Below, in pieces: positions 12,555 to 34,160 of a stretch of 34,160 bases of DNA. The position numbers were made by a program, and so were the translations under genes. This DNA comes from a virus: positions 1-34,160 of IMG/VR virus record IMGVR_UViG_3300025110_000055. One strand, given 5' to 3'. Under the pieces are notes generated by a model. The model was not told the origin of the DNA, ran no database searches, and saw nothing but the letters and a program-made list of their open reading frames with translations. Position 1 is the first letter of the stretch, and each line of letters opens with the position of its first letter.

Positions 12555-12809
12555 TCACATCTTCACTTGTTCGTCAATACCTGAGTCAAATTTTTTAAAA
12601 GGACTTTTCCTTGTGCTCATCACAGTACGCCACTTATTAGGTTGCATAGTAACCCACCCATTATCTTCTAATCTTTTTAACATAGCGTGTACTGTGCTCT
12701 TAGATGATATACCTAGCGTATAAGCTAAAGCATCTAGTGATGGTCCACAATTAAATTCTTCCCAGTATGCTTCTATCGCTTCTAATAACTTTAATTGTTT
12801 GTTTGTCAT
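12555..12809 (-). CDS. LexA-like winged-helix DNA-binding protein without peptidase domain
   Basis: This 84-aa protein matches the N-terminal DNA-binding domain of LexA: TNKQLKLLEAIEAYWEEFNC, then GPSLDALAYTLGISSKSTVH (recognition helix) and AMLKRLEDNGWVTMQPNKWR (wing). LexA's serine/lysine self-cleavage domain is absent, so this protein cannot be inactivated by RecA-stimulated autocleavage. It lies between terS and terL, directly beside four palindromic sites that it may bind. Its own upstream region carries a LexA-type GTTC-N7-GTTC box. The ribosome site is weak. A transcriptional repressor is most likely, though the targets are inferred. Confidence 0.75.
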   Translation of the reverse strand: MTNKQLKLLEAIEAYWEEFNCGPSLDALAYTLGISSKSTVHAMLKRLEDNGWVTMQPNKWRTVMSTRKSPFKKFDSGIDEQVKM

Positions 12810-12840: not shown

Positions 12841-12855
12841 GAACATTATACGAAC
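12841..12855 (-). promoter_or_regulatory. Alphaproteobacterial LexA-type box over a TATAAT -10 element
   Basis: On the minus strand the sequence is GTTCGTATAATGTTC, an exact GTTC-N7-GTTC direct repeat, the published LexA (SOS) box of alphaproteobacteria. The seven spacer bases contain a perfect TATAAT hexamer, so binding would occlude a promoter. It lies 32 nt upstream of the LexA-like gene start. The -35 region (around TGGCTT) is weak. Host LexA, the phage LexA-like protein, or both could bind. Confidence 0.6.
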
Positions 12856-12977: not shown

Positions 12978-13013
12978 GGGGGGTTGGGGGGGAGTGGGGT
13001 TATATTAATGGGG
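12978..13013 (+). repeat. G-run cluster with G-quadruplex potential
   Basis: Runs of 6, 7, 4 and 4 G's (12978-12983, 12986-12992, 12996-12999, 13010-13013) are separated by 2, 3 and 10 nt, in an otherwise AT-rich genome. This fits an intramolecular quadruplex on the plus strand. It lies in the 229-bp gap 12810-13038 between terS and the LexA-like gene, which also contains the palindrome GGGGTACCCC (12902-12911). No convincing gene is present in the gap. A packaging-site, transcription-pausing or replication role is speculative. Confidence 0.6.
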
Positions 13014-13038: not shown

Positions 13039-13509
13039 TTAATTGCCAAACATTTGCTGTATCTTTTGTTCTAACTCAATCCTGATCTCATCACTCGTCT
13101 TATCATTGGTTATGCTTTCCACTCTCTCTGTGAATAGTGCCACCTCTGAAACCTTGCCTAGCAATTCCAAAGCCCTGATTCTCGCTGATTCGTTGTTGTT
13201 TGTATTAGTAGCCTCTGCTTGTAGCTGTTCCATGATGAACTGTCTTAGAGAGATAGCTGAGGTGACTGCATAATCGTTCTTACGCTTAATTCCTTGCTGT
13301 ATCCTTTGGGAGACCTTAGGGTTGCTCATTAACTTACTAGCCTCTGTCCATATGCTACTGTCTTTCATATTCTCTACGCTGTAAGCATCTCTGTATGATT
13401 CACTTGCAGTCTTACCTGAGATGACACCCTGACAAAACTTTTCCTGCTTAGGAGTAAGCCCTGATATGTTAGCTACTTTGTTCCCTGATTTATCCTTATC
13501 TTTACTCAT
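13039..13509 (-). CDS. terS: Terminase small subunit
   Basis: This 156-aa protein should recognise phage DNA and present it to the large subunit. It shows the Terminase_2-type N-terminal HTH pattern ISGLTPKQEKFCQGVISGKT followed by ASESYRDAYSVENMKDSSIW and TEASKLMSNPKVSQRIQQGI, then a helical oligomerisation region and a C-terminal acidic helix (DEIRIELEQKIQQMFGN). It is the first gene of the leftward block. A 16-bp palindrome lies 7 bp before the ATG where early rightward genes carry the same element. No strong Shine-Dalgarno is visible, so translation may be modest. Confidence 0.82.
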   Translation of the reverse strand: MSKDKDKSGNKVANISGLTPKQEKFCQGVISGKTASESYRDAYSVENMKDSSIWTEASKLMSNPKVSQRIQQGIKRKNDYAVTSAISLRQFIMEQLQAEATNTNNNESARIRALELLGKVSEVALFTERVESITNDKTSDEIRIELEQKIQQMFGN

Positions 13510-13516
13510 ATCTATG

Positions 13517-13532: not shown

Positions 13533-13656
13533 TTTAATTTTTTTTACTTGCCCTATGTTAGTGATTACTATCGTTTAATCCTTATTATCCGCTTACTTCG
13601 TAAGCAACACAAGTATTGGTGGCGAACATTGGTAGAAAATAATTAACATTTTTTAC

Positions 13657-13684
13657 TTGATATTTGTGGGGTAGTCTATATATT
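13657..13684 (+). promoter_or_regulatory. Rightward sigma70-like promoter
   Basis: TTGATA (13657-13662) and TATATT (13679-13684) are separated by 16 bp; both boxes match 5 of 6 consensus bases. Transcription would start near 13691, just at the edge of the less AT-rich structured region, and run into the early gene block. It is the best-matching promoter seen in the window. Confidence 0.55.
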
Positions 13685-14130
13685 AGGTCTTGTGTTTGGG
13701 GTTGTCGGCTCTTTTGCCCCCTCTCTAAACCGCCCATAGTGGGACTGCTTTTGTCCCCTAGAGTGAGGTTCGCAACGATACTTCACTATGTTGGTTGCCT
13801 AGAGCGATCAACGAGACTAGGGACAATACCGCAACGAGGTAAACTAGGAATCCTCACCACGAAAAATCCGGACTTCAAGTCTTTGTGCGTTTACCTAGTG
13901 TCCTGAGAGTGTTGGTCTTGGTGGCTCAATACTGCGATTGTTGGGTGAGTAGCGTTTCCCCCCTCGCAAGTTTTTAAAGCTGACTTGATTCCCTCTGAAC
14001 ACAAAACAGGGTGTGTCAACGATAAGACGATCTTTGATTGTCTTTGATGTGCTAAGGATTGCGGTGTAGCGTGGCTTGTCTCTAGGGGCTAACTTGTGGC
14101 GTGTGTAGTGATCTGATCCCATGTTGAATT
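13685..14130 (+). ncRNA. Candidate structured non-coding RNA / long structured leader
   Basis: About 440 bp without a convincing gene, visibly richer in G and C than its surroundings. Complementary segments on the plus strand include GGGAC/GTCCC (13741-13745, 13753-13757), AGTGAGG/CTTCACT (13762-13768, 13781-13787), a nested set GGACA/TGTCC (13821-13825, 13899-13903) enclosing GGTAAAC/GTTTACC (13838-13844, 13889-13895) enclosing CACGAAA/TTTGTG (13858-13864, 13882-13887) enclosing GACT/AGTC (13871-13874, 13878-13881), and an 8-bp hairpin at 14024-14044. A sigma70-like promoter points into it. No match to a known RNA class or tRNA is claimed. A minus-strand 75-codon ORF in its right half is an alternative reading. 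Confidence 0.4.
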
Positions 14131-14143
14131 GTCTTGATAAACA
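14127..14143 (+). repeat. Leader repeat, copy 1
   Basis: AATTGTCTTGATAAACA, followed by AAAGGAGTAA, precedes the gene starting at 14158. An identical 17-bp copy followed by the same ribosome site occurs at 14552-14568 before the next gene. It is probably a shared translation-leader or promoter element (TTGTCT or TTGATA could act as a -35). Confidence 0.5.
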
Positions 14144-14157
14144 AAAGGAGTAATCAT

Positions 14158-14487
14158 ATGAAAAATTATAAAGAAATCTTTATTTCCCCTGCTAAGGATG
14201 GGTTTGGAATTGAATGTTTAGCTGATGGGGAAACTCATTATTTAGGTAGATGTCCAATAACAATATGTTCTTGGTTGCAAGTGCATGATGTTCAATCAGC
14301 AACTCATTCATCTTGTATGGAATTTGCGACTGAGTATGGATTCAAAAATAATGATGATGCTTTGGAACTTTGGAACAAAGCATGGGATAGATATTTAAAT
14401 AAATTAGAAACACGAAAAGCTAACGCTGTCGCTGTTAAAACATTTAGCAACTTGCAAACAAATTATTCACCTTATGGAGTGAGTTAA
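14158..14487 (+). CDS. Early phage protein, unknown function
   Basis: This 109-aa soluble protein is the first gene of the rightward early block. I place the start at the ATG at 14158 because an AAAGGAG site lies 8 nt upstream; a longer in-frame TTG start lacks one. It begins MKNYKEIFISPAKDGFGIEC and has a helical middle (SSCMEFATEYGFKNNDDALE) then LWNKAWDRYLNKLETRKANA. I do not recognise a family. Early position in the transcript suggests a host-takeover or regulatory role, but nothing in the sequence proves this. Confidence 0.6.
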   Translation: MKNYKEIFISPAKDGFGIECLADGETHYLGRCPITICSWLQVHDVQSATHSSCMEFATEYGFKNNDDALELWNKAWDRYLNKLETRKANAVAVKTFSNLQTNYSPYGVS

Positions 14488-14509
14488 ATCAACTGATGAG
14501 CAACACAGA

Positions 14510-14532
14510 TCAAGGGGCTTTATGCCCCTTGA
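14510..14532 (+). repeat. Strong GC hairpin without U-tract after first early gene
   Basis: CAAGGGGC (14511-14518) and GCCCCTTG (14524-14531) form an 8-bp stem with a 5-nt TTTAT loop, extendable by a T-A pair. It lies 23 bp after the stop codon. No T run follows on either strand, so an ordinary intrinsic terminator is doubtful. Transcript processing or 3'-end protection is an alternative. Confidence 0.6.
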
Positions 14533-14551
14533 GTGGTGGCGAAACAATGTA

Positions 14552-14568
14552 AATTGTCTTGATAAACA
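14552..14568 (+). repeat. Leader repeat, copy 2
   Basis: Second exact copy of AATTGTCTTGATAAACA. An extra TATAAACA is inserted before AAAGGAGTAA compared with the first copy. It precedes the gene starting at 14589. Confidence 0.5.
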
Positions 14569-14588
14569 TATAAACAAAAGGAGTAAAT

Positions 14589-14786
14589 ATGAGTGATTTT
14601 GAAAAAGTGATGAAGATTGTTGAGGATAAAGCGTTCTCAAAAATCAATGGTGTTGCGGTTGATCTGTTCACCGCAAGTTTCATTAAGTCTGTTTACGATA
14701 ATGTGAACGATAAAAATAAGAAGTGCATGGAAGTTATGAGTATCGCTAACTTAATTGGTGTGGCTCAAACTTTAATGGCTAAATAA
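14589..14786 (+). CDS. Small conserved phage protein, unknown function
   Basis: This 65-aa protein reads MSDFEKVMKIVEDKAFSKIN, then GVAVDLFTASFIKSVYDNVN and ends with a helix (EVMSIANLIGVAQTLMAK). The KINGVxVDLFTAS...VYD pattern is familiar from short proteins in marine phage genomes. No function is assigned that I know of. It has a strong AAAGGAG site and shares its 17-bp leader with the preceding gene. Two or three helices are likely and no membrane segment is convincing. Confidence 0.6.
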   Translation: MSDFEKVMKIVEDKAFSKINGVAVDLFTASFIKSVYDNVNDKNKKCMEVMSIANLIGVAQTLMAK

Positions 14787-28905: not shown

Positions 28906-31900
28906 TTATCTCTGGACTGCCTCTGGTATTATATCCTGCAATATAGTTTTTCTAACTAAAGGAATTTGTTTTGATTTTAGAAGTTCATTCTTTGCTGATT
29001 GCAATTCAACAAGCTGATTTCTTTTCTGATCTGGCGTAAGAGTTTGACTGTTTATAATTATAGCCTCTGCATTTCTAATCTCTTTTAATTGATCTGAAAT
29101 ATTTTGCAGGTCTTTTTGCAAGTCTTTAAGTAAATCGTAGTATTCAAACCGATATTCTTTAGCCATGCCTATTGCAAATGTATCACCTCTATCCACAACA
29201 TCATCTTCTAGTTTTCTAAATGATTGCACTAGATCATCTGTCATGCCTTTAAGATCATAGAATTGATTTTCAATACCACGCCCCTCAGGTGGTAAAGTAA
29301 ACGCCCCAATAACCGGAAGCTGATCGACACGCAAACTAGCCCTCTCTGATCCTGTTAAGCCCTCTCTTAACATAGAATCAACACCTTGCACTAAATATGT
29401 TCCCATTGATCCTGAGTATCCACGAATAAGATTTTCTACATAAAGAGGACTTATATTCATTTGATCTCCTACTACTCTTGAAAGTGTGTCTGTGCTTGGT
29501 CGGTAAGCTAGGTCGTCTGTGCCTTCTAAGTAGGTCGGTATTATTTTTCTACCTGTAAAAAAATCATAATTAAAATAATTTTCTATTAATGGTTCTACCA
29601 ATGTAGGTGGTGTAATAGAAAGTGTATGGAAGATATTTCTTGTTAAGTTATCAGCTACATCTTTACCTGCTATATCATCCATAGTGTAAGCTAAAAGTCT
29701 TTCGGGAATAGTAAATGCAAGTAACCCTACTTCAAATGGCTTAGGTAAAGCAATTGTTTCTCCTGTTAGTTTTTTGCTGCCCGGCATAATTATATAATTA
29801 TCTTTAATTTCATCAGGTGCTTCTTTATATTCTTCACTATCTCTAACTAATAAATAGTAATAAGGTACTAAAGACATTAACCCTGCAAATCTAAGGAACA
29901 CACTTTTTAATCTTTTGGCTGGTGATAAACCTCTACCTATACCATACTTGCCTGTTAAACCTCTGTAAAAAACATCAAGCCCTTGTATTCTTGGATTTAA
30001 AAACATGGTTGTTTGTGCAAGATATTGAAACCATTTAGCATTACCACGCCTTGTAAAGTTTAAAACTTCCATAGCTTGAAATATAGCTTCTGCTTCATTA
30101 CCTGTTCTTTTAAGTGCATCTTTATAAACAGCTACTCTTGTAGCTGCATCAGTAATTGCTGTTCCTTGTCCTAATATTTCCCAAACTTTTGCAAGAGTAT
30201 CAAAAGGTGCCATTGCTATTTTTTTAACTGTTGATCTTTGTTTTTTAATTTCTTTTTTATACAAGTTGTTTACTAACTTTTCTGTTGTATCTATTTGTCT
30301 AACACCTTGATCGTATCCTGTAATAACACCTGCATCTCTTAACTGTTTAAATTCTTTTGGCAAATTACCTGTAGTTAAACCAACAGCTATGCTTACTGTT
30401 TCTTTTAAAGAACTAATAATAGGAGTATAGTTTGCACCACTTAAAGTCCATGCTGATACTGAGTCTCTAAGTATTTGTCTAAACCAAAAGTCAGGCAGTC
30501 TTGTAATAAGATCAGATACTACTTGTTTTGTTCCTCGTAATGCACTTGTAAATAAACCCATTGGTGCAAAATCTCCACCTGTCATTATAGTAAAAGCATT
30601 AAAGTAATCAGGATCATCAACTTTCCATGATGTAGTTTTACCATTTACTTTTACTTGCACTATGTTTGGTCCTTTAACATTACCTTTAACTTGTTCTGCT
30701 ACACCTAAAATTTGTAAGTTACGCATGACTCTATTAGCTGCAACATTCTTCATACCTAAGTTTATTGCTGCTCTAAGATTGTTTGTTATGCCTGTAATTG
30801 GATCAACAATATCTTTTTCTTCACTACCTTTTGCTCTTTTAAATGGTGTGATAGATAAACCTTGTAATATCTTAGGACCTTTAAATCCTTCCATGCCTTC
30901 AAGCGGTCTGTAAAAAGGTATGTAATCTGATGTCTCCATCCAAATCTTACCTGTTTTTTCATCTAAAACTCCTGTATCTATAAGGAATCTAACAATGTGT
31001 GAGTTCCATGTTTGATACTGATCAATCATAGTTTCTAATTGTTCATAATCTTTTAATGCTTTTTCTGCATCTTTTTTATCTTGTGCAGTTATCTTTACTT
31101 TTCTACCTTCTGCATCAAATCTAGTTTCTCTTTGTACTCTTAATACAGCTTGAAAAGCCCAAAGCATATTGGGATTATTAATGGCTTCTTTAAATATTTC
31201 GTATGGTGCTACGATAGGTTGACCATCTTGAGGCGATACATCAACAACTGTGGTGTAACCTTTTTCTTTGTTATATACAGGAACACCTCTTAAAAAAGAT
31301 TGTTGAAATATATCTCCTGATCTATCTGAATGATATAAAGCTGCTGCTGCTGATACAGATGCAGATAACATTTCATCACCAACACCAGATATTTCTCCTG
31401 CAACATAATCTGTATCTGCTAATCTTGCATACTGATCTAGTATTTCTTGTCTAAAACCTAATGGATTCCAAAAACCTTTTAATGTTTCTAAAACTCTTTG
31501 ACCTACAGTTACATCATCAGGTGTAATATCTCTAACAGTTAAGCGTTGAACTATTCTTTCTGTTTCTGGTTTTAATGGTTTACCACTATTTTTAAAAGAA
31601 TATTTAATCTTATTATCTTGACCTATATCGCTAAGAATAAAATTAATATCAGCAGACTCTGCTGAGGGTGTATTTTTTATATCCTCTTGTGCTTTAACTG
31701 CTGCTGCTACAGCATCAGGGTTTGCCCCTGTATTAATAACAGGTCTTACACCTGCATCTATTGACTTTTGTTTTTCAGCTTCTGCTTTTTGAAGGAGTCG
31801 TTTTGTTTCTCTGCTTTGTTCTTGGTCTTGTTGAATACTAAGTTCATCATTGCCAACTCCAATTCTTCTTCTTTCTGCAAGGTACTGATATGATTCTGTG

Positions 31901-34160
31901 GTATCTTCTTCAAGTGTTTGTTCTCCTACACCAAAATTATTATTTATAAATACAAAACCGGTGCCACGATATTCAAAGTTATCTTTTAAATAATTGTATG
32001 TATCTCTTGGTGTATTTTCAACATCAATTAAATAACTGCTAGGTATGTATCTTCCTGTTGCAACAAATCTATTTAAAACTCTTGTAGCAGCAGAATTAAA
32101 ATCTGCATCTACTAATACAATATCTACATCATAATTATAATCATCTTGCAGTTTATATATAAGTTTATCTAAAGATTTAACTTTATTAGTTCCACCAACT
32201 TTAGGTATAACTATGTTATCACCTTTACTTAATTGATCTTCTAAAACTTGTTGAGATAAAAAACTAGATTCTACAGCTACAGCATTTGCACCTAAACCAT
32301 TTCCAAACTCAGGTAATATTTTTTTTGCATCATCTGAATCTACTATTGCTGCACCAATTTTTTTAGCAATTTTTTCTGCAAAATGAGATTTACCTGATGC
32401 TGGTAAACCTATAGCTATTACTGCTTTACGATCTTGATTAACAATTCCTTTAGCATAAGACTCAGCTTTTCTAATTAGTTGTGGTACATATTTATTTTCT
32501 CTAGCTTTTAATTCTTCATCAAAATATAAATCAGATTTAATTTCTCCGTTAACATTTTTTGCAGTTTCTTCTTGATTAAATACCCTTAACTCTGCTTCTT
32601 GTAATGCTGAATCAGTAAGCAACTTTATAAGTTCATTACGATTTAATCTTTTGTTAGAAAGTTTTTTTAATTTAGCTTCTAACTGTCTAACTAATAAATT
32701 ATAAACATCATCAGTTGCAATCTCTGTATTTATTGTAGGACCTGCTGGATTACCTGTAGCACCCATAATAAAATTAATGCTGTTTTCATCTAGTATGTCT
32801 TTTGCTTGATCTTTAATTGTTTTAATTCTGTGATAAAGCTGTTGTTTAAATCTAGGTCCTAATCTTTCAATGGGGCGACCAACTTCAATTAAATCTTTTT
32901 TATTAACTAATAATTCTGATTCATTAAAAAATTTATATTCTTTACCTAAACTACCTGTTACATCAAAATCATAACCACCAGTCATTATAGGATTTATATA
33001 AGCTAAGACTTTATCTTTAGGTATTATGTATTCAATAATGCTACCATCTTCTGCATATATACCTTCTTCTACTTCTTCACGGGCATCTATTTCTGGAGAT
33101 TCACCAAAAACTATATCATCTATATCTTTACGAGAAAATTGTTCTGCTACTGTGCGATTAAATGTTACAGGCACAACATCATATTCATCTTGAATATTGC
33201 CACCACGATAAACTACTATTTGTTCTGGAAAATTACTTAGTGTTTCTCTAGTAATAGAATTAATATCTTCTTGTAATTGTTCTACTGTGTTTATACTCCA
33301 GCCATCTAAACCAAGTGTATCTATAAAATAATTTTCATCATTTTCTAAAATAGCAGCTATTGAATCTGAACCATCTTCTTGTGCTTGTCTTATTACTCTA
33401 TCTATTAATGGTTGTCTTTCTTTATCGTAATCACTATATTTATCTTTAAGAGACTGCCAAGTAATAGGTACTGGTCTGCCATCACTAGTAATATCTTTAA
33501 GTCGTGTTACTAGTGAAAGTTCTCTTTCAGGAGTAATTCTACCCTCTGTTCTGACTAGACTATATTTGGTAGTGGATTGTGGTAAAACTGGATCAACAGG
33601 TATTACTGCTGGTTGTTTTGATACTATGGCATTTTTACTTACACCAAATAATCCTTTGTTTTTATAAGGGTTAGATATTGTAGGATTGTTTCTTAAATTA
33701 ATTAAATCAGGGTGAAACAATACATCACTAAAATTTAAATTAAATCCTCTTATTTGATGTGGATTACCTGATATAGAATGATATTGACTGTCTCCTAATT
33801 GTGCTGCTTTAATAGCCTCACCTCTATTATCATATGCTATTGCTACTGTATCTCCAGTAGGAATATCGCCTACAAAATAAAATGTTTTTATGCCATTAGA
33901 TTTATTGTTAGCTTCTTTTCTTAATAATACTTGTGTTGCGTTATAAGCTACTTGACTTATTTCATTTAAATTATTTTTATCTGCTGTTGGAAATCTTCTT
34001 TTAACTAAGTATTCATTTAGAACATTAGAACTTTGATACATAAGATTTGTCCATGCACTCATGTCTTCACTAAACTCATTATTTTCTACACCCATAATAT
34101 ATTCTGTGTATATTCTTGGTGGCTTAGTAAGTAAGTCTTCTCTAAATTTATACTTTAAAC
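28906..34160 (-). CDS. Giant polyvalent protein: ADP-ribosyltransferase, P-loop kinase and LPD38-like parts (partial)
   Basis: At least 1750 codons. An internal ATG at 34095 gives 1729 aa, but the frame stays open to the window edge and no ribosome site precedes that ATG, so the gene probably starts outside. Numbering from that Met: residues 280-400 show the R-STS-ExE plan of ADP-ribosyltransferases (VVYRGGN, VTFNRTVAEQF, FFNESELLV); 555-720 show a zeta-toxin-like kinase (AIGLPASGKSHFAEKI, VDSDDAKKILPE); about 1050-1500 resembles LPD38 of polyvalent proteins (PDFWFRQILRDSVSAWTLSG); the C-terminal 100 residues are coiled coil. Such proteins are thought to be ejected with the genome and act on host targets. 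Injection and activity are inferred. Confidence 0.75.
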   Translation of the reverse strand, partial: LKYKFREDLLTKPPRIYTEYIMGVENNEFSEDMSAWTNLMYQSSNVLNEYLVKRRFPTADKNNLNEISQVAYNATQVLLRKEANNKSNGIKTFYFVGDIPTGDTVAIAYDNRGEAIKAAQLGDSQYHSISGNPHQIRGFNLNFSDVLFHPDLINLRNNPTISNPYKNKGLFGVSKNAIVSKQPAVIPVDPVLPQSTTKYSLVRTEGRITPERELSLVTRLKDITSDGRPVPITWQSLKDKYSDYDKERQPLIDRVIRQAQEDGSDSIAAILENDENYFIDTLGLDGWSINTVEQLQEDINSITRETLSNFPEQIVVYRGGNIQDEYDVVPVTFNRTVAEQFSRKDIDDIVFGESPEIDAREEVEEGIYAEDGSIIEYIIPKDKVLAYINPIMTGGYDFDVTGSLGKEYKFFNESELLVNKKDLIEVGRPIERLGPRFKQQLYHRIKTIKDQAKDILDENSINFIMGATGNPAGPTINTEIATDDVYNLLVRQLEAKLKKLSNKRLNRNELIKLLTDSALQEAELRVFNQEETAKNVNGEIKSDLYFDEELKARENKYVPQLIRKAESYAKGIVNQDRKAVIAIGLPASGKSHFAEKIAKKIGAAIVDSDDAKKILPEFGNGLGANAVAVESSFLSQQVLEDQLSKGDNIVIPKVGGTNKVKSLDKLIYKLQDDYNYDVDIVLVDADFNSAATRVLNRFVATGRYIPSSYLIDVENTPRDTYNYLKDNFEYRGTGFVFINNNFGVGEQTLEEDTTESYQYLAERRRIGVGNDELSIQQDQEQSRETKRLLQKAEAEKQKSIDAGVRPVINTGANPDAVAAAVKAQEDIKNTPSAESADINFILSDIGQDNKIKYSFKNSGKPLKPETERIVQRLTVRDITPDDVTVGQRVLETLKGFWNPLGFRQEILDQYARLADTDYVAGEISGVGDEMLSASVSAAAALYHSDRSGDIFQQSFLRGVPVYNKEKGYTTVVDVSPQDGQPIVAPYEIFKEAINNPNMLWAFQAVLRVQRETRFDAEGRKVKITAQDKKDAEKALKDYEQLETMIDQYQTWNSHIVRFLIDTGVLDEKTGKIWMETSDYIPFYRPLEGMEGFKGPKILQGLSITPFKRAKGSEEKDIVDPITGITNNLRAAINLGMKNVAANRVMRNLQILGVAEQVKGNVKGPNIVQVKVNGKTTSWKVDDPDYFNAFTIMTGGDFAPMGLFTSALRGTKQVVSDLITRLPDFWFRQILRDSVSAWTLSGANYTPIISSLKETVSIAVGLTTGNLPKEFKQLRDAGVITGYDQGVRQIDTTEKLVNNLYKKEIKKQRSTVKKIAMAPFDTLAKVWEILGQGTAITDAATRVAVYKDALKRTGNEAEAIFQAMEVLNFTRRGNAKWFQYLAQTTMFLNPRIQGLDVFYRGLTGKYGIGRGLSPAKRLKSVFLRFAGLMSLVPYYYLLVRDSEEYKEAPDEIKDNYIIMPGSKKLTGETIALPKPFEVGLLAFTIPERLLAYTMDDIAGKDVADNLTRNIFHTLSITPPTLVEPLIENYFNYDFFTGRKIIPTYLEGTDDLAYRPSTDTLSRVVGDQMNISPLYVENLIRGYSGSMGTYLVQGVDSMLREGLTGSERASLRVDQLPVIGAFTLPPEGRGIENQFYDLKGMTDDLVQSFRKLEDDVVDRGDTFAIGMAKEYRFEYYDLLKDLQKDLQNISDQLKEIRNAEAIIINSQTLTPDQKRNQLVELQSAKNELLKSKQIPLVRKTILQDIIPEAVQR

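Follow-up and report, generated by a model that had tools for sequence, protein, structure and literature searches.

Does the noncoding stretch that separates two divergent gene blocks of a marine bacteriophage specify an RNA of its own, and if so, what might such an RNA do? The stretch lies in a 34,160-base IMG/VR virus record, analysed here over its whole length and referred to as the window. It is bounded on one side by terS, the terminase small subunit gene (13039-13509, minus strand; PHROG 51, E = 7.8e-20), and on the other by early genes on the plus strand, the first of which (gene 1, 14158-14487) encodes a 109-aa protein without a PHROG match and without a Pfam match above cut-off. A preliminary description, made from the letters of the DNA, had pointed out a differing base composition, and this is borne out by a G+C content of 0.43-0.46 between 13600 and 14199 versus about 0.36 upstream and 0.28-0.38 downstream, i.e. 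about ten points above the flanks. It had also held that there is no convincing gene. Both open reading frames named there (plus strand 13664-13906 and minus strand 13895-14122) are interrupted by stops or frameshifts in homologues, in some cases already within the clade of the window itself (clade 1); no reading frame of the region is conserved across homologues, and for the minus-strand frame, a conserved coding signal in which had been named as evidence against an RNA, none was found. As the following data show, positions 13691-14127 of the plus strand are a conserved structured noncoding RNA that heads the early operon, divergent from terS. Large structured RNAs described from phages are few, and their functions have yet to be assigned.

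To collect homologues we used terS and the early ATPase gene as baits, together with three DNA patterns taken from the RNA itself. The RNA was found on 15 IMG/VR contigs representing about 11 distinct RNA sequences, which fall into clade 1 (the window, L003, L005 and L007), clade 2 (L009-L014 and L016) and an independent member, L135, whose RNA is 91% identical to that of the window. L135 was found later through another motif and played no part in building the structural model. Counts were made on an alignment of 11 rows, of which at most ten are independent, L010 and L012 having the same RNA sequence. No DNA match to the RNA was obtained in GenBank phages, and a search of GTDB genomes with two RNA-derived patterns gave no match; contig L106, matched by one pattern, was discarded as a chance match in GC-rich coding sequence. 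The nearest cultured relatives by TerL (54-59%) are phage 023Pt_psg01, Pelagibacter phages HTVC027P and HTVC023P and phage DSL-LC04, and a covariance model of positions 13733-13903 (R1) found no match in the terminase regions of cultured relatives (L111-L114). The family is small and narrow. In each member whose contig extends that far, terS adjoins the RNA, a linkage that is partly by construction because most homologues were found through terS. The same neighbourhood would suit an RNA linked to packaging or the terminase, with a use comparable to that of phi29 pRNA; given the origin of the linkage, an early-type promoter that would be unexpected for such a role and the lack of any matching Rfam family, we consider this very improbable.

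The energy predicted for folding one sequence by itself is unremarkable (z = -0.42) and uninformative, so that any structure required comparative proof. A search for helices kept across the clades yielded 72 two-sided pair positions on the plus strand; the minus strand gave 33, and alignments with shuffled columns gave 8-23. The model chosen comprises 74 pairs in 14 helices and one pseudoknot. On the aligned homologues 99.0% of its cells are paired, two-sided changes occur at 31 of the 74 pairs and the covariation score is 0.478 versus 0.07-0.12 in controls with slid partners; sliding the partners by one to three columns left 40-49% of cells paired and 2-5 two-sided pairs. As most two-sided changes separate the two clades, the independent events are fewer than these cell counts. 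Moreover, the model was built from the alignment rows themselves, for which reason the test on L135 weighs more: this member retains 72 of the 74 modelled pairs, among them four compensated pairs of the pseudoknot. G-U pairs account for 21% of the modelled pair cells, and since they would mismatch on the other strand they signal an RNA on the plus strand. A DNA-level element mimicking an RNA, such as a replication origin or packaging site, might be suggested by a noncoding position between divergent blocks, beside terS, and by good conservation that also extends upstream of the promoter; with compensation that is strand-specific (72 versus 33) and this share of G-U pairs, we regard it as extremely unlikely. 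The support for the fold is unusually good for so small a family, with the pseudoknot confirmed in an independent member. The covarying pairs that the preliminary description had named as a test of its proposal are present, and with strong covariation, no Rfam match and no coding signal its central claim, that a structured phage RNA not described before precedes the early genes, is supported.

The RNA spans about 437 nt of the plus strand, its 5' end predicted from the promoter and its 3' end taken as the last base of helix P11. A 5' stem, P0, is proposed outside the 74-pair model at 13693-13731 (outer strands 13693-13700/13724-13731); it is partly compensated between the clades (GGG/CUC, AAG/CUU, GGA/UCC), and GUUU/AAAC is replaced by GUUC/GAAC in L135. 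The long-range helix P1 (13739-13742/13857-13860) shows two-sided changes at three of four pairs and is 100% paired, and P2 (13751-13757/13820-13826) shows them at four of seven pairs with 97.4% paired. They are followed by hairpin P3 (13761-13786, apex UUCGCAACGA; two of four pairs two-sided, 90.9% paired), whose register shifts between clades, by hairpin P4 (13789-13813, apex GUUGCCUAGAGC; two of nine, 100% paired) and by hairpin P5 (13836-13855; three of four, 100% paired). The loop of P5 joins the pseudoknot, in which it pairs with the strand just before P7 (13843-13848/13894-13899). In the aligned sequences the pseudoknot strands read ACUAGG/CCUAGU, ACUGGG/CCCAGU or ACUGGA/UCCAGU, while L135 has ACAGAA/UUCUGU where the window has ACUAGG/CCUAGU. 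Hairpin P6 (13870-13882), with a UUCAA loop and adjoining the invariant GAAAAAUCCG, carries two-sided changes at three of four pairs, with as many as four types of pair at a single position.

The middle domain is closed by P7 (13900-13905/14007-14012; two of six pairs two-sided) and P8 (13909-13913/13998-14002; one of five), both 100% paired. It holds the proposed hairpin P9 (13943-13960), read from the alignment and L135 and bearing a conserved GURGCG loop, and hairpin P10 (13967-13987; 98.5% paired), in which the outer pair is C-G, G-U or U-A. The 3' domain (14016-14127) contains the invariant CUCUAGGGGCUAA together with P11 (14016-14020/14123-14127, two of five two-sided in this outer part, plus 14049-14051/14120-14122), P12 (14056-14062/14108-14114; four of seven) and P13 (14069-14072/14099-14102; two of four). 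In addition, a 7-nt complement between CCUAGAG (13798-13804) and CUCUAGG (14080-14086) might allow a loop-loop contact; given the number of possible loop pairs it is likely to be due to chance, and its nearly invariant bases give no covariation.

The pairings proposed earlier fared unequally on the homologues. The GACT/AGTC inner hairpin (13871-13881) is strongly supported, and the hairpin at 13762-13787 recurs in both clades as P3, with partial support. The three outer nested pairings were rejected: GGACA/TGTCC loses one pair in all clade 2 sequences, GGTAAAC/GTTTACC does not vary in its middle and has one pair broken in three sequences, CACGAA/TTTGTG is without any compensatory change, and P1, P5, P7 and the pseudoknot explain these bases better. 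Furthermore, the hairpin proposed at 13741-13757 competes with P1 and P2, and that at 14024-14044 is confined to clade 1, being missing from clade 2 and L135.

The proposed Rfam search yielded no match at the gathering threshold in the window, nor did the RNA itself give one at E up to 5, so no family matches it; weak matches to SSRC30, SNORD60, preQ1-II and STnc50, seen across two thresholds, were dismissed as chance. GOLLD and ROOL RNAs, to which the RNA had been likened, often lie near tRNA islands, and an RNA-only multimer (nanocage) is a trait of the class. Such a setting is lacking here, as neither ARAGORN nor Rfam detected a tRNA or tmRNA anywhere in the 34 kb of the window. GOLLD and ROOL are large pseudoknotted noncoding RNAs of phages and prophages with unknown function, ROOL measuring 659 nt and many GOLLDs over 800 nt (PMC12286853). 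They are thus larger than the 437 nt found here, and the window RNA differs also in its place at the head of an early operon, beside terS and hammerhead motifs. The likeness therefore holds in general terms, for a large, pseudoknotted, phage-borne RNA, and goes no further for want of an Rfam match and of a tRNA in the window. Among the titles and abstracts listed by a search of open-access full texts, no account of such an RNA was found.

A sigma70-type promoter, TTGATA-16-TATATT (13657-13684, plus strand; 10/12 matches), predicts transcription from near 13691. It had been called the best sigma70-like promoter of the window; six other sites equal it with 10/12. Measured from the RNA core (CCCATA), promoter-like hexamers lie 47-48 nt 5' in clade 1 and in L135, and about 70 nt 5' in clade 2, the distance being fixed within each clade. 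No plus-strand intrinsic terminator was found at or after the RNA 3' end and no promoter-like site between the RNA and gene 1, so the two are probably co-transcribed. This, and a gene 1 ribosome binding site at most 25 nt from the last helix, would be compatible with a cis-acting 5' leader of the early mRNA, either a ligand- or protein-sensing riboregulator or an mRNA-stabilising element. The RNA stays, however, while the window, L007 and L135 each have another first reading frame behind it. This speaks against a leader specific to one gene, and the constant regulated gene expected of a riboswitch or attenuator is lacking; moreover, the conserved structure closes with P11 (14127) ahead of the ribosome binding site and no terminator/antiterminator pair was seen. 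We regard a leader role as unlikely.

Further hints as to the role of the RNA come from hammerhead motifs. Between genes 1 and 2, a descriptor scan identified a consensus type I hammerhead motif on the plus strand (14488-14563) with a CUGANGA, GAAA and UH core and three stems, where 0.04 matches are expected per dinucleotide-shuffled window. Its stem I is formed by 14488-14492/14559-14563 and stem III by 14545-14548/14553-14556, the core by CUGAUGA (14493-14499) and GAAA (14541-14544), and cleavage is predicted after 14558. Rfam hammerhead models gave no match on 14470-14600 at E up to 10, and they score above gathering in related phages. In clade 2 the hammerhead core is retained, with stems I and III replaced. 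The substrate strand of this motif, AAUUGUC/UUGAU, recurs without change where the RNA ends (14127-14138, plus strand; candidate cleavage after 14133), the copies starting at 14127 and 14552. The repeat occurs in all clade 1 phages checked and is also recorded for L005, L007 and L081. A hammerhead directly abutting the RNA in the window was rejected, as the descriptor finds no complete one there; the catalytic strand that would match sits behind gene 1, about 0.35 kb past the RNA. An exact repeat of the substrate would in principle let a single catalytic strand pair at either copy; duplication of a leader sequence would account for the repeat equally well. Directly behind the RNA, clade 2 and L135 have hammerhead-like three-way junctions whose cores are non-consensus, with insertions, and Rfam gives no match for the clade 2 junction. 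Core insertions strongly slowed cleavage in other natural hammerheads (PMC3088659), which makes the activity of these junctions doubtful; their resemblance to hammerheads is suggestive only.

More distant phages, whose TerS is about 50% identical (L017-L028 and L125-L128), carry noncoding RNAs of another sequence in the same slot. The eight examined (L020, L025, L027, L028 and L125-L128) measure 225-520 nt and lie beside terS, with stable predicted folds and a promoter-like site in front, and compensated pairs occur among the four that could be aligned. They share with the window RNA the slot, the promoter-like site and a noncoding, structured nature with compensated pairs, but are not detectably homologous to it by sequence or by covariance model R1; two of them gave no DNA match in GenBank phages. 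In four of the eight (L025, L027, L125 and L126) a consensus type III hammerhead stands behind the RNA, L028, L127 and L128 have a hammerhead-like sequence there that was seen by eye and not flagged by the descriptor, and none follows the RNA of L020. Type II hammerheads occur between early genes of these relatives, and additional type III hammerheads lie deeper in the early regions of L126 (2957-3015) and L127 (2188-2246, minus strand). Upstream of terS, L020 and L025 carry a hairpin unit like CAGCTTAGTGGAGCGATCCTATGCTG twice within the 520-nt operon-head RNA. The presence of another RNA in the slot of a neighbouring lineage makes the slot worth surveying in phage genomes.

The reading we favour, and to which we give an even chance, is that of a discrete immediate-early structured noncoding RNA which forms the first unit of a ribozyme-processed early transcript and acts in trans. 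Host RNA polymerase would start at the promoter at 13657-13684 once the phage DNA enters, and the first 437 nt or so would fold into the several domains and P5-loop pseudoknot supported by covariation. Self-cleavage of the hammerhead type, for which the motifs described above speak, would then split the RNA from the downstream mRNA. The basis for such a release is, in the distant relatives, the type III hammerhead directly behind the RNA and, in the window, the GUC site at which the RNA ends, the same in sequence as the substrate of the hammerhead that lies 0.4 kb further on. Once freed, the RNA may act in trans early in infection, with a host machine or a phage protein as its most likely binding partner. 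Against this reading stand the lack of an intrinsic terminator that would define the 3' end, the absence of a complete hammerhead abutting the RNA in the window, the non-consensus cores of the junctions in clade 2 and L135, and the small and narrow family. We suggest more tentatively that the slot as a whole is a conserved device for a ribozyme-released immediate-early RNA effector; in this phage one core might serve two identical sites that flank gene 1. The link to hammerheads suggests a concrete use of the ribozyme by phages, the freeing of a noncoding RNA from an early transcript, and the promoter of the RNA is defined and its 3' end open to test. Perreault et al. (2011) described hammerheads between genes of phage operons and proposed that these cut long transcripts into gene-length mRNAs (PMC3088659). 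The intergenic hammerheads of the present operon resemble those clustered prophage motifs, with the difference that the first unit here would be a structured noncoding RNA, not described in the passages of that study considered.

A structured RNA immediately behind an early promoter is also known from phage HK022, whose put RNA, about 70 nt long with two stem-loops, needs no tether to the transcript in order to act (PMC9378689). The window RNA, placed directly behind an early sigma70-type promoter and ahead of a long operon, might likewise be a nascent-RNA antiterminator that stays on RNA polymerase and allows read-through of early-operon terminators. As untethered put RNA works (PMC9378689), such a role is compatible with downstream hammerheads, and later cleavage of the transcript would make no difference. 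The two RNAs are, however, unlike in size and architecture, about 70 nt with two stem-loops as opposed to about 437 nt with several domains, 14 modelled helices and a pseudoknot, and we hold antitermination to be rather improbable.

Several observations were made on the surroundings of the RNA. Upstream of its promoter, the noncoding stretch 13584-13640 is strongly conserved in clades 1 and 2, with an identity of about 82% in its best block, and carries the inverted repeat GCTTACTTCGTAAGC and CGAACATTGGTAGAAAAT. On the far side of terS, an 84-aa protein (12555-12809, minus strand) has a LexA-type DNA-binding domain (Pfam E = 4.8e-10), and between the two genes lies a G-rich run, ggggggttgggggggagtgggg (12978-12999), that could form a G-quadruplex. 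The LexA-like gene is adjoined by a GAAC-N7-GAAC direct repeat (12841-12855), which we take to be of the alphaproteobacterial LexA box type; a single match is about the chance expectation. At the end of the window, a 1729-aa reading frame occupies 28906-34095 of the minus strand. Furthermore, the palindromic motif ACTATTAACNNNTTAATA was matched 14 times, counting both strands and allowing up to two mismatches, versus 0.37 expected, at positions 13515, 15267, 16635, 18774, 19648, 21714, 23074, 26625 and 28883. Several copies stand immediately 5' of a ribosome binding site, and the set looks like a group of operators or phage promoters.
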